Of a stretch of 64,000 bases of DNA, positions 33,544 to 58,400 are shown piece by piece. Origin of the DNA: Ruficoccus amylovorans (GTDB taxonomy: Bacteria > Verrucomicrobiota > Verrucomicrobiia > Opitutales > Cerasicoccaceae); NCBI RefSeq assembly GCF_014230085.1, contig NZ_JACHVB010000013.1, positions 124,001 through 188,000 on the forward strand, given 5' to 3'. Each line of letters begins with the position of its first letter. Positions within the stretch are counted from its first letter, which is position 1. A model generated the notes under the pieces. The model did not search any database, was not told where the DNA came from, and saw only the letters and a list, made by a program, of their open reading frames with translations. Position numbers and translations under genes: made by a program.

Positions 33544-34542
33544 TTATGCGCCGACCACGCTCCAGGGGATTTCACGCCCGGCCCACATGGGGACGACTTC
33601 GCCGTAGCTGGCGGGGATGGTGAACGGCTTTTTCGCCAGCGTAACCGCCTTCGCGGGTGGGGTGACGTCATAGATGCGACGCGCGTTGTCCGAGACAAAA
33701 GCCTGGAGACGGTCCAGCGCGTCGTGTTCGTCAAAGAGCCCGGCCAGCAGTTGCAGGGCGATGGGCGCGGTAAATACCCCTGCCGCGCAGCCGCAGCATT
33801 CCTTTTTGTGCTGGGGGTGCGGGGCCGAGTCGGTGCCCAGACAGAGCTTCGGGTGCGCGGTGACGGCGGCATGCGCCAGCGCTTCGCGATCCTCGGGACG
33901 CTTGGCGATGGGCTTGCAGAAAAGGTGCGGGTTAAGCATGCCCCCGGCCACGTCGTCCAGGGTAATGATGAGGTGTTGCACGGTCACGGTGGCGTGCAGG
34001 TTTTCAAACTCGTTCAGGAGCACCAGCGCCGCCGCCGTGGTGATGTGCTCCATCACGATCTTCAGGCGCGGGAAGCGCTCGGCCAGCCGGCGGTAGATGG
34101 TTAAAAACTCCGCCTCGCGGTCCATGACAAAGCCGTTGCTCTCGCCGTGAATCATGAGCGGGATGCCCAGTTCCTCCATCAGGCGCATGGTCGGCTCGGC
34201 CTGGTCGATCTGGGAGACGCCGCCCTCGCTGTTGGTGGTGATGCCCGCCGGGTAGAGTTTTATCCCGATAATGTGGGGCTTGGCCGCCTCCAGCTCCTCG
34301 CGCGTGTAGGCGCGGAAAAAGAGCGTCATGTACGGCGCGAAGTCTTCCCTTCCGGCGGCGGCGAGGATCTCCTCCCGATACCACTTCAGGCGCTCCAGCG
34401 AATCCACCGGCGGCACGAGGTTCGGCATGATGACCGCCCCGGCAAAAGTCTCCGCGCTCAGTGGGGCGACGGCTTTGAGCATCGCGTCCTGCCGCAGGTG
34501 CAGGTGCATATCCAGGGGGGAGTGAAGGGTGAGCGTGGTCAT
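33544..34542 (-). CDS. pyrC: Dihydroorotase (class II, PyrC type)
   Basis: About 332 residues if translation starts at the second in-frame ATG (an ATG 5 codons earlier is also possible, and a short-repeat sequence overlaps this start region). Metal-binding and catalytic features are clear: 'DMHLHLR' near the N-terminus, carboxylated Lys in '[10 protein letters not shown]', His in 'LMIHGES' and 'VMEHIT', and the Asp in 'LGTDSAPH'. It closes carbamoyl-aspartate to dihydroorotate in pyrimidine synthesis. No other pyr gene is adjacent. It is flanked on both sides by palindromic elements of one family. Confidence 0.95.
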
Positions 34543-34614
34543 CAGGTCATTTGTCATTTCTCATCGCTCATTAGTCAATGGCCAATGGGAAATCCAAAAA
34601 TCGGGAAAGAGGGA

Positions 34615-38373: not shown

Positions 38374-40716
38374 TCAGCGCCCGAAACGCCGGGCCAGCTC
38401 GCGGTTGGACAGCTCAAAATAAGTAGGCCGCCCGCGCGGGCAATTCAGAGGCTGCTGACACTGTAGCAAGGCGCGGGCCAGCTCGGTCATTTCTTCGCAA
38501 CCTCCTCCATCGGCGGGGCGAATCGCCCGGCGCACGGCCAGACGGGCCAGCGCCTCGTCCGCCACAGCGGGGCGGCTCAGGTCAAGCGAACCCTCGCGCA
38601 GCCGCTCGATCAGGTCGCGCACAAAAGTCTCCGTCTCGGCCTCGGGGAGCCAGTCCGGGTGCGACTCCAGGCGGAAAAAGTTCTTCCCGAACGGCTCGAT
38701 CCCGAAACCATGCGCCTGCAAGGCGGGCAGATTCTCTTCCAGCGCGGCACTGGCCAGCGGCTCCAACTCCAGCCCGACCGGAAAGAGCAGACGCTGGCTG
38801 GGCTGTTCGTTTTCTGAAAAACGCGCCTGCAAGCGCTCGAACCAGACCCGTTCGTGGGCGGCCCGGCGGTCCATCACGACCAGCCCGGACGGCGTCTCAA
38901 ACAGCGCATACCCCTCACGCAGAAGCCCCAGACATCGCCACTGGAAACGAAATTCCGGCTCGCTGGCTTCGCCGCCGGAGACGGCCCGCGAACCGGGCTG
39001 AGCCGGGGTCCAGGTGACAACCGGCAACTCCTCACCCGTCACGGGTGCCCGCGCCGGAGCTTGCGCCGAAGCCGGGGTGTCAATCAGCGTCGGGTCGTCT
39101 GCGGGGACCGGGCTGCCTGCGAGAGCGGATGCAGCGGGCTTTTCCGGCCCGCCTTTGCTCTCGTCGGAGGTAGCTGGTTCGGCACTGGGTGGTTCTGCGC
39201 CTGCCGGGGCGACGCTTTGGTCCGAAATACCTTCCTCTCCTGCCCGCTCGTCGCCGGCGGAAGGTTTTTTACCGGGATCGGTCGCCGTCGCATCCGCACC
39301 GGGGGCGGCGTTAGGATCGGGTTTGAGATACTTTTCGCGAAATTGCTCCGAGACCGGGCCGGGCCGCGTGCGCGGGTAGGCTCCGGGCTTGAGCGCCGGG
39401 GACGGGACCGGGCGCGGTGCGGGCTCCGAGGCGGCGGCCCCGGATTCGCCTTGCCCCTCGGCGGGCCGGGAGGCAGGCGCCTTTCCAACCCGGGAGTCAG
39501 CCCCGGCGTGACCCGGCTTCGCCTCCTCGTCCCGCCCAGGCCGTCCCACCACCGGGTGCGAACGCTCACGGCGGGGGAGCACGTCGATTTCAAAGTCCTC
39601 GCGTCCGCCTTGCAGGATCGGGTGCCGCGCACGGGCGGCCAGCGCCTGAAGCTGCCGTACGACCGCCTGCAGGACAAATTGCCGGACCCGGCCCTCGTCG
39701 CGGAACTTGATCTCGCGCTTGGCCGGATGGATGTTCACGTCGATCACCGCCGGGTCGATTTCCAGAAAGAGGAAGGCCAGCGGGTAGCGCCCCTTGGGGA
39801 TAAACGAGTGGTAGCCCTCGATCAGCGCGTAGTTGAGCGTGCGGCTATCCACCGGACGGCCATTGACCAGCGCGATCATCTGCCGCCGCGTGGCTCGTCC
39901 CGCCCCCGGTTTGCCCACCAGGCCGGTCAGGCGCAGGCCGTTTTCGCCCTCGGCCGGTTCCAGTTCGACCAGTTCGTCGGCCAATTCGCGGCCCCAGATC
40001 TCAGCCACCCGCTCGCGCATGTCGGGGCATTTGGGAGAGGAAAACACGCTGCGCCCGTTCTCGATCAGCGAAAACGATACCCCCGGCCGCGCCACCGCGT
40101 GCAGCCGTACCAGGTGCGTGATGTGGGCTGATTCGGTGGCGTCGCTCTTTAAAAACTTCCGTCGCGCGGGCACACTGTTAAAGAGGTTGGCCACCTCGAT
40201 CCGGGTGCCCGTCGGCATCCCGCATTCGCGCTGGTGGACCATGCGCCCGCCGTTGACAAAGATCTCCGTCCCGTGCTCCCAGCCGCGGGCGCGGGTGCGC
40301 AGGGTAAATCGGCTGACACTGGCAATGCTCGGCAGCGCCTCCCCGCGAAAGCCCAGGCTGAGGACTTTGGCCAGGTCGGCGGCATCGCGCAGCTTGCTGG
40401 TGGCGTGGCGTTCGAGCGCGATCAGGGCCTCGTCCGGAGGCATCCCGATGCCGTTGTCCTCGACGCGGATCAGGCTCTTGCCTCCGCCCCGGAACTCGAT
40501 CTCGATCCGGTCGGCACGTGCGTCGAGGGCGTTTTCCAGTAGTTCCTTCACCACCGCCGCCGGACGCTCCACCACCTCCCCGGCCGCGATCTGGTTGATC
40601 ACACGGTCGGGCAGAACGCGGATGCTGGGCCGCTCGAATACTGCTTCGGCCCCGGGGGACTGGTCATTTTCCTCGCTCAAGGAGGGCCACCGTAACCCAT
40701 CCTCGCCCCGGTGCAA
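38374..40716 (-). CDS. mutL: DNA mismatch repair protein MutL with degenerate endonuclease motif
   Basis: Up to 780 residues. No ATG is available in frame, so it starts at a TTG: either this one or the TTG 12 codons later. The N-terminal GHKL ATPase is intact: 'INQIAAGEVVERPAAVVKELLENALDA' (key AAGEV and ENALDA), 'VEDNGIGM', 'LGFRGEALPSIASVS'. A long Pro/Ala/Glu-rich linker covers about 345-585. In the C-terminal domain the usual metal motif DQHA(x)2E(x)4E appears as 'DRRAAHERVWFE' (Asp616), and CPHGRP as 'CPRGRP' (Cys759). Both His are Arg, so nicking activity is doubtful. It acts with MutS in repair. Confidence 0.93.
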   Translation of the reverse strand: MHRGEDGLRWPSLSEENDQSPGAEAVFERPSIRVLPDRVINQIAAGEVVERPAAVVKELLENALDARADRIEIEFRGGGKSLIRVEDNGIGMPPDEALIALERHATSKLRDAADLAKVLSLGFRGEALPSIASVSRFTLRTRARGWEHGTEIFVNGGRMVHQRECGMPTGTRIEVANLFNSVPARRKFLKSDATESAHITHLVRLHAVARPGVSFSLIENGRSVFSSPKCPDMRERVAEIWGRELADELVELEPAEGENGLRLTGLVGKPGAGRATRRQMIALVNGRPVDSRTLNYALIEGYHSFIPKGRYPLAFLFLEIDPAVIDVNIHPAKREIKFRDEGRVRQFVLQAVVRQLQALAARARHPILQGGREDFEIDVLPRRERSHPVVGRPGRDEEAKPGHAGADSRVGKAPASRPAEGQGESGAAASEPAPRPVPSPALKPGAYPRTRPGPVSEQFREKYLKPDPNAAPGADATATDPGKKPSAGDERAGEEGISDQSVAPAGAEPPSAEPATSDESKGGPEKPAASALAGSPVPADDPTLIDTPASAQAPARAPVTGEELPVVTWTPAQPGSRAVSGGEASEPEFRFQWRCLGLLREGYALFETPSGLVVMDRRAAHERVWFERLQARFSENEQPSQRLLFPVGLELEPLASAALEENLPALQAHGFGIEPFGKNFFRLESHPDWLPEAETETFVRDLIERLREGSLDLSRPAVADEALARLAVRRAIRPADGGGCEEMTELARALLQCQQPLNCPRGRPTYFELSNRELARRFGR

Positions 40717-40824
40717 CCGCTTTTAATACCGCCCCGGCAACATCCCCGCCCCAATCAAAAACGATCGTCCTACTTCACGCTTAACGGCTTGCCAACGCAC
40801 CCGGTGCAGCCTTTGCTCGCGGGT

Positions 40825-41271
40825 ATGAAAAAATCCGTCTTCGCATTGCTTTCCGTCGTTTCGCTTTTTGTTTTCGCCGCCTGCTCGCACACGCCGATCC
40901 CTGTCGCCGGGGCCTACATCGTGGCCGAGGTCAACGGCGTCGAAGTCGAAACCGAGCAGCCGATCAAGGTGACCTACACCGGCGAAAGCCTCGTGGGCAA
41001 AGGCCCGATCAACAACTGGAACTGCCCCGTCGATCCGCAAACCGGCGACATCGGCATGGGCATCTCCACCCGCATGGCCGGTCCGCCCGAGCTGATGCAG
41101 CTCGAAGACCAGCTCCTCAAGGCCCTCGACGGTGCCAAGCTCACCTCGCGTTCGGACGACGTGCTCGTCGTGGTCAAGGACGGCAAGGACGTCATCGTGA
41201 TGACCCCCGTCGATCCCACCATGACCTACGGCAAGCCCTCCCCCACTGCCATCCCGAGCAACGAGATGTAA
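40825..41271 (+). CDS. META-domain (HslJ-like) lipoprotein
   Basis: 148 residues from the ATG before a lipoprotein signal ending 'FVFAACS' (Cys20). The mature part matches the META/HslJ pattern: 'VNGVEVE', 'GKGPINNWNC', then 'ISTRMAGPPELMQLEDQLLKAL', where the family has 'TrMac..e.E..f...L'. HslJ-type proteins are envelope or outer-membrane proteins linked to heat shock, novobiocin resistance or motility in different bacteria. Divergent from mutL; followed by a terminator. Confidence 0.82.
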   Translation: MKKSVFALLSVVSLFVFAACSHTPIPVAGAYIVAEVNGVEVETEQPIKVTYTGESLVGKGPINNWNCPVDPQTGDIGMGISTRMAGPPELMQLEDQLLKALDGAKLTSRSDDVLVVVKDGKDVIVMTPVDPTMTYGKPSPTAIPSNEM

Positions 41272-41280
41272 GGGGAGAAA

Positions 41281-41335
41281 AATACGGCCACGAAGGGCAC
41301 GAAGGAGACACGAAGCTCACAAAGAGCCCTGCTGC
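41281..41335 (+). repeat. CACGAAG-type short repeat
   Basis: CCACGAAG, GCACGAAG, ACACGAAG and TCACAAAG follow one another with 2-3-nt spacers. The layout is like the arms of palindromic elements 1 and 2, but no complementary right arm is present nearby. Confidence 0.6.
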
Positions 41336-48545: not shown

Positions 48546-48716
48546 ATAAACCACAGAGGACACAGAGAGCACAGAGTGGGATTTTAACCGCAAAGGCACA
48601 AAGGACGCAAAGATGAATGATAATTCTTAAACAACCGAATCCAACAACCAACCCATCAAACATTCTCTTCTCTTCCCTCCGTGCCTCCGTGTGAGCTTCT
48701 TTTTCTTAACCACGGA
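48546..48716. repeat. Mixed CACAGAG / CGCAAAG / CACGGAG repeat cluster
   Basis: CCACAGAG, ACACAGAG and GCACAGAG (48550-48576) are followed by ACCGCAAAG, GCACAAAG and ACGCAAAG (48585-48612). At 48672-48690 the reverse complement of CACGGAG units appears (CTCCGTG). This looks like the remains or building blocks of palindromic elements. The gap from 48416 to 48847 holds no gene that I can support. Confidence 0.7.
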
Positions 48717-48847
48717 TGATACAGATACCCTCCCTCGTCCGCAGTTTTAAAAACAATAAACGCCACAACGCTGGCTCCCCGCGCAGCCTTGCCGCGTTTT
48801 GCGTTTGGCATCGGCGGGGAAACCGACACCTTTCTCAACCAACACCT

Positions 48848-58216: not shown

Positions 58217-58400
58217 GATTAAATGGTTAAATGGCTAAAAGGTTAAATGGTTGATGGGCTGAATGGTCGTCAAAATACATCTGGTCGTCCGGTATGAATG
58301 TTAAAAAATTGCTCGGATAAAACACACGCTGCGAATCGCAATCAGCGACCCAATCCAACAACCAACCCTTTAACCATTCAGCCATTTGACCATTTACTCC
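58217..58400. repeat. Imperfect palindromic element with TAAATGGTTAAATGG arms
   Basis: The left arm (58217-58254) and right arm (58363-58400) are inverted copies with 5-6 mismatches over about 35 positions. About 108 nt lie between them. The right arm overlaps the stop codon and last two codons of the ATP-grasp gene. The size and layout resemble elements 1 and 2 near pyrC. Confidence 0.7.

Follow-up and report, generated by a model that had tools for sequence, protein, structure and literature searches.

Short tandem arrays of the kind analysed here are, to our knowledge, frequent and unexplained intergenic repeats, and they are known from single genomes. In Geobacter metallireducens, class-2 sites comprise 21 pairs of three tandem TCTCCGTS[Y] repeats, placed on opposite strands at variable distance (PMC2700814). 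In Xanthomonas, intergenic arrays of the heptamer GGGAATC occur as convergent inverted pairs, 70 in one genome and 75 in another (PMC4692102), and TAACTGA repeats have been described in Beggiatoaceae (PMC4679880). The Geobacter sites resemble the arrays reported here in having three tandem 8-nt repeats (the complement of TCTCCGTS[Y] is [CG]ACGGAGA) paired on opposite strands, but they are read as regulator sites, and the available part of that paper mentions neither GxxExxY nor mobility (PMC2700814). The Xanthomonas arrays are likewise short, tandem, intergenic and paired in inverted orientation, but the available text treats them as G-quadruplex repeats (PMC4692102).

Like MITEs and REPINs, many of the units described below are small, gene-less, intergenic inverted-repeat units in many copies that would be mobilised in trans. 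They differ in that each end is a tandem array, the units of which vary, in that no target-site duplication was detected at GxxExxY loci, and in that the partner gene encodes a predicted nuclease. A REPIN/RAYT origin was ruled out, as the genome analysed here (97.78% complete) has no PF01797 (Y1) match. The 23S rRNA IVS also have one small ORF between complementary arms, but IVS reside within rRNA, where RNase III cuts them, whereas the elements here lie between protein genes and carry GxxExxY; those in the window lie between protein-coding ORFs, and no rRNA match was obtained in the window at gathering score. Homing endonuclease elements share a single nuclease gene (predicted in our case), the reuse of sites and the lack of target-site duplication; we know of none with bracketing inverted arrays or many gene-less copies.

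In the portions of the open-access literature searched (preprints excluded), GxxExxY and PF13366 are mentioned sparsely, PDDEXK_3 and TIGR04256 are not mentioned, and papers containing the array strings were judged unrelated from their titles and the starts of their abstracts. No link between the arrays and GxxExxY was found in this literature. Here, we analysed a 64,000-nt window, the whole stretch of DNA presented above (G000:C13:124001-188000), within a 4.5 Mb genome of 64 contigs, and compared its arrays with those of the rest of the genome and of related and distant genomes.

Tandem arrays in the window and across the genome

An initial annotation had noted CACAGAG, CGCAAAG and CACGGAG units in close proximity, and all three are confirmed as arrays A, B and C (Table 1). 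The cluster is not limited to three arrays, as a fourth, decayed CACGGAT-type array (D) had been overlooked. The arrays were said to lie there without complementary partners, and this holds: the inner-side inverted partner scores of A and B are 16 and 19, below the top value of 21 from 64 shuffles, and no evident inverted partner of C or D was seen nearby by eye. The statement that two palindromes elsewhere in the window, elements 1 and 2, carry the CACAGAG and CGCAAAG arm types is correct, and their inverted arms are perfect. The lone CACGAAG array placed at 41281-41335 is present over a shorter interval, although one of its four units is CACAAAG; it starts 14 nt past the stop codon of ORF 40711-41271. 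Elements 1 and 2 flank ORF 33544-34557, which we take from its sequence to be dihydroorotase-like. The window also has a TTAAATGG-type tandem array of period 8 at 58219-58396, with an inverted arm (58373-58396) 105 nt off, a palindrome of a different unit class.

Table 1. Tandem arrays and gene-less palindromes of the window, in window coordinates
Feature	Position	Strand	Description
Element 1	33281..33514		Gene-less palindrome; 41-nt perfect arms, 3 x CACAGAG + inner CGCTGCCGCT; 152-nt interior
Element 2	34615..34839		Gene-less palindrome; 39-nt perfect arms, 3 x CGCAAAG + inner CGCTGGCGCT; 147-nt interior
Lone array	41286-41324	+	Four-unit array, 3 x CACGAAG + 1 x CACAAAG; begins GGCCACGAAG
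Array A	48549-48576	+	AACC + 3 x CACAGAG, 2-nt spacers; AACCACAGAGGACACAGAGAGCACAGAG
Array B	48586-48612	+	AACC + CGCAAAG/CACAAAG/CGCAAAG; AACCGCAAAGGCACAAAGGACGCAAAG
Array C	48677-48696	-	CTCAC-type arm, two CACGGAG units; CTCACACGGAGGCACGGAG
Array D	48708-48726	+	Decayed AACC-CACGGAT-TACAGAT; read by eye

Genome-wide, AACC(CRCRRAG)x3 has 64 matches (33 + 31) in 4.5 Mb, and (CRCRRAG)x3 without AACC has 160 (76 + 84, with long arrays contributing overlapping matches more than once). Both patterns read backwards have none, which excludes chance. We searched for an inverted partner of each AACC array within 650 nt, with the maximum of 64 shuffled comparisons as the threshold. The resulting catalogue of all 64 arrays, which had been proposed with the initial annotation, contains 37 with an inner-side partner, 4 with an outer-side partner and 23 with neither; A and B are among the 23. 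Of the two observations named in advance as counting against modular arms, an excess of single arrays over paired ones was not seen, whereas the link between arrays and palindrome interiors is indeed weak, as described below. Among the 100 of the 160 matches that were listed, 48 of 95 other arrays are at least 90% identical to the arm core of a GxxExxY gene of the same genome, and the 28-mer of array A recurs in several of the palindromes.

Eighteen palindromes of this genome were excised (elements 1 and 2 plus 16 more, 85-294 nt). They are short, have terminal inverted repeats and encode no transposase. No Rfam family was obtained for the interiors at gathering score, and the inner box CGCTGNCGCT of elements 1 and 2 is present in 5 of the 18. 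Sixteen were long enough for a comparison of interiors: seven resemble at least one other, and nine resemble none. A conserved interior as the key part of the elements is therefore unsupported, and it is ruled out as the family-defining part. Palindromes with a similar core are nested at two places (C14:259 kb and C12:188.8 kb), as expected for units that move with both arms.

GxxExxY genes between inverted arrays

The genome has seven PF13366 (GxxExxY, TIGR04256) matches, and inverted arrays flank all seven, with other units in two cases (L036, L037). Arms were scored independently of the unit by aligning one flank (up to 220 nt) against the reverse-complemented 220 nt of the opposite flank; the threshold of 27 is the top score seen in 400 shuffles and in 67 distal pairs. 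Arms exceed the threshold at 7/7 loci of this genome, 24/26 from nine other genomes of the family, 26/28 from a phylum sample and 63/74 from named genomes, and 120 of the 135 loci tested are bracketed overall. Controls offset by 600 nt gave 0/7, 0/26, 1/27 and 0/67, respectively. The family set covers 26 of 48 GxxExxY matches (27 were fetched, and the fragment L340 was left out), and the phylum sample covers the best match from 29 of 33 other genomes with a match, one of the 29 being unusable. The named set is the best 80 of 586 matches to the query, of which 74 were usable and 6 with short flanks were left out. Passing named records, many of them metagenome-assembled, include Geobacter, Roseiflexus, WOR-3, KSB1, Desulfobacteraceae, Lentisphaerae, Flavobacterium, Pirellula, Nostoc, Dolichospermum, SAR324, Acidobacteria, Sphingomonas, Novosphingobium and Armatimonadetes. 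Eleven of the 74 named loci are below the threshold, and the sole archaeal record, Methanothrix, fails the test.

The arrays are also oriented. With at least two C[AG]CN[AG]A[AGT] units required per side, CRC-type arrays face inwards on both sides at 92 of 135 loci (4/7 in this genome, 21/26 family, 19/28 phylum, 48/74 named) and outwards on both sides at 0/7, 0/26, 1/28 and 8/74. No such inward arrays surround the 29 PF05635 loci or the 28 PF01797 loci inspected. It is close to certain that the arrays bracket the GxxExxY gene. Their common partner is this gene, not the palindrome interior, and it is the gene that defines the family.

The first GxxExxY protein of the genome scores 134.6 bits against TIGR04256 (cut-off 35), and five of five scanned proteins match the family at E ≤ 0.001. 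An alignment of 52 sequences has invariant E27, D67, E77 and K79, with Q91 and Y95 conserved at 90% or more, which we take to be a PD-(D/E)XK pattern that includes a QxxxY motif. The structure prediction is confident (mean pLDDT 96). Foldseek matches in the PDB are weak, to SSO0001 (which we take to be a Cas4) and lambda-type exonucleases, the best at E 0.0037 and none at E ≤ 0.001; a search for PDB relatives by sequence gave two matches at E 0.24, taken as chance. We predict that GxxExxY is a PD-(D/E)XK-type nuclease; no function was found for the protein family.

A second gene family occurs in a similar architecture. PF05635 (23S-IVP) genes of the phylum sample (L192-L220) have inverted arms at 22 of 29 loci, compared to 1 of 28 at 600-nt offset, with units such as AATGCGG, GTGAACA, TTAGGCT, TTGAAAG and GGAGAAC. 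The best arm period is 7 in 18 of these 22 arms and at least 8 in all 24 GxxExxY arms of the family set. Inverted arms were found at only 4 of 28 Y1 transposase genes (PF01797). Two PF05635 matches occur in this genome, both on contigs other than that of the window. The fold of PF05635 is presumably different from that of GxxExxY. We tentatively suggest a cross-phylum class of minimal mobile elements made of tandem-array ends and one small protein, with at least two branches: Cas4/lambda-exonuclease-like GxxExxY with periods mostly of 8-10, and PF05635 23S-IVP with periods mostly of 7. Each protein might read its own type of array, and many bacterial heptamer arrays could be ends, solo ends or gene-less copies of such elements.

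Across the phylum sample (78 other genomes), the number of array matches correlates with that of GxxExxY copies (rho 0.76), with a partial correlation of 0.58 after PF05635, PF01797 and genome size. The 33 genomes with GxxExxY contain 1077 array matches, and the 45 without it contain 25. In the same genomes, PF05635 gene counts have rho 0.63 (partial 0.25) and PF01797 counts rho 0.44 (partial -0.03). When one genome is drawn per family, the values are 0.68 for GxxExxY and 0.65 for PF05635. Because PF05635 correlates alike, the co-occurrence is supportive but not decisive for GxxExxY. Exceptions are 5 of 31 array-bearing genomes without a GxxExxY match and 7 of 33 GxxExxY genomes without a triple CRCRRAG. 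One genome of the phylum sample, G120, has 19 CRCRRAG array matches and no PF13366 match; it may have lost GxxExxY or have a different driver. Reversed-pattern matches are few across the sample except in its most array-rich genome, G056, with 29 against 425 forward.

Arm types and turnover at orthologous sites

Arms of one element match each other, and arm type follows the protein. Among 139 loci considered, 119 had arms above the threshold (L262, L277 and L339 were also left out), and for 98 of the 119 a comparison with all right arms ranks the partner from the same locus first. Arm distances correlate with the distances between the proteins (Mantel 0.42), a value reached by none of 499 permutations, the highest of which gave 0.16. 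The arrays of the window fit into this series of arm types. Two congeneric species, G003 (L315) and G002 (L324), have a GxxExxY element whose left arm is identical to array A (28/28), and in both an in-frame ATG directly follows this arm. AACC-CACAGAG arms with 2-nt spacers occur on none of the seven GxxExxY copies of this genome, only on copies of relatives. Array C is of the type of the arms around two copies of this genome (L031, L034), the lone array at 41286 is of the type around a third (L032), and CRCRGAT-type arms like array D bracket GxxExxY in L276, L271, L329 and L330.

We compared orthologous intergenic sites where the sequence of relatives was at hand, which is not a random sample. 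The cluster site has no array in G001 or G003; in G002, array A is represented by its first 19 nt, and a CACGGAT-type palindrome is present as well. Array B is missing in G001, G002 and G003. One GxxExxY copy of this genome (copy A) is common to G002 (90%) and absent from G001, where a lone array lies instead. The end of copy A (L034:1466-1489) adds the C-terminus SHEGTEAQR to the upstream ORF, the stop of which overlaps the GxxExxY start as ATGA; other annotated proteins may likewise contain peptides of this origin. At the site of another copy (copy B), G001 and G002 have gene-less palindromes and G003 has a GxxExxY element beside another array. At the L032 site, each of three genomes (this one, G001 and G002) has a GxxExxY element with its own arm type, and the proteins of this genome and G001 are 57% identical over 119 residues. 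At C14:45 kb, a 122-nt gene-less palindrome in this genome corresponds to GxxExxY elements with other arms in G006 and G007, two members of its family. Direct repeats of 2-8 nt were not in excess outside the arms at 119 GxxExxY loci, the exact element ends being uncertain.

The sites of elements 1 and 2 are both occupied in G001 and G002. Their interiors are 82% identical in G001 and 90% in G002, inverted in both, compared to 60% in direct orientation in this genome. The interior matches found between species are 63-74% identical, several of them over partial length. Relative to element 1 of this genome, the interior is flipped in element 1 of G002 and in element 2 of G001. We read this pattern as the probable result of exchange, both from arm to arm and from one of the two neighbouring elements to the other, with independent insertion as an alternative.

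The initial annotation had suggested that arms are exchanged or lost in a modular way. Part of this stands: lone arms are of the same family as paired ones, arms and interiors occur in free combination, and the occupants of a site change. That partner arms were lost is unproven, however, and the 41286 array is retained in both G001 and G002; some lone arrays are old and stable.

Origin of the arrays and alternative explanations

So, what are these arrays? We estimate a probability of about 0.55 that they form the inverted termini of very small mobile elements, a family with GxxExxY as its sole gene, with palindromes as gene-less versions and lone arrays as solo ends. The observation that drew attention to the cluster holds, and the modular picture holds in part; the cause would lie outside the window. 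Bracketing, the correlation of arm type with protein, nesting, and presence, absence and replacement at orthologous intergenic sites are observed; the units are likely mobile, and we hypothesise that the nuclease moves them. A complete element would be array, GxxExxY and inverted array, ~0.45 kb in total. Gene-less palindromes such as elements 1 and 2 would have the same kind of ends and probably moved in trans, and lone arrays, including the four of the cluster, would be solo ends that remained after an element decayed, was copied in part or was replaced. The nuclease may recognise its own arrays and cut or resect DNA there. Repair would then copy the element into a new or array-bearing site, in a homing-like rather than cut-and-paste manner, and copying without a staggered cut-and-paste step fits the absence of flanking direct repeats. 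Exchange between the arms of one element or of neighbouring elements could keep arms complementary and flip interiors.

The nuclease gene could instead be cargo, with another enzyme or host recombination moving the array-ended units. Gene-less palindromes are numerous (an inward partner exists for 37 of the 64 AACC arrays), and PF05635 genes occur in similar architecture (22/29), as if the ends outweighed the gene. We nonetheless doubt this explanation, given that arm type follows the GxxExxY sequence, that arm unit class differs between the two gene families (period 7 in 18/22 PF05635 arms and 0/24 GxxExxY arms), and that the one transposase family searched, Y1, has no match in this genome. 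It is less probable still that the arms act in RNA, as terminator-like or RNase III-processed hairpins with DNA mobility secondary. Several sites lie at or just behind stop codons, strong hairpins are predicted, and arms of one element stay complementary while diverging between species; but long inverted repeats yield such energies by construction, and arm-to-arm gene conversion explains the complementarity equally. IVS provide a precedent: the available part of the source describes their stems as inverted repeats, an ORF for S23 and cleavage by RNase III (PMC4990558). Lone arrays are unable to form a hairpin, however, and the GxxExxY fold resembles DNA exonucleases, although weakly.

It is improbable that the arrays serve a host regulator or a nucleoid protein as binding sites. 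Such a role was proposed for the 21 paired sites of G. metallireducens, with IHF/HU-type regulators (PMC2700814, available part), but bracketing of GxxExxY at 120 of 135 loci, empty orthologous sites and nesting would all be unexpected of regulator sites. Short tandem units can expand by slippage, so ordinary repeat slippage or chance might be considered for the arrays; we regard this as negligible, given the inward orientation, the identity of partner arms and the lack of any reversed-pattern match in this genome, by which it is ruled out.

If the arrays are indeed the ends of GxxExxY elements, they and the gene are tied together: the gene gains a context and the repeats gain an origin. Should GxxExxY bind and cut its own arrays, the result would be a mobile element with a RecB/Cas4-type nuclease as its only basis, and we know of no other of this kind. 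Some repeat-derived peptides in annotated proteins would also be explained. On this reading, the window would contain leftover ends and gene-less copies of widespread units, not a one-off oddity.
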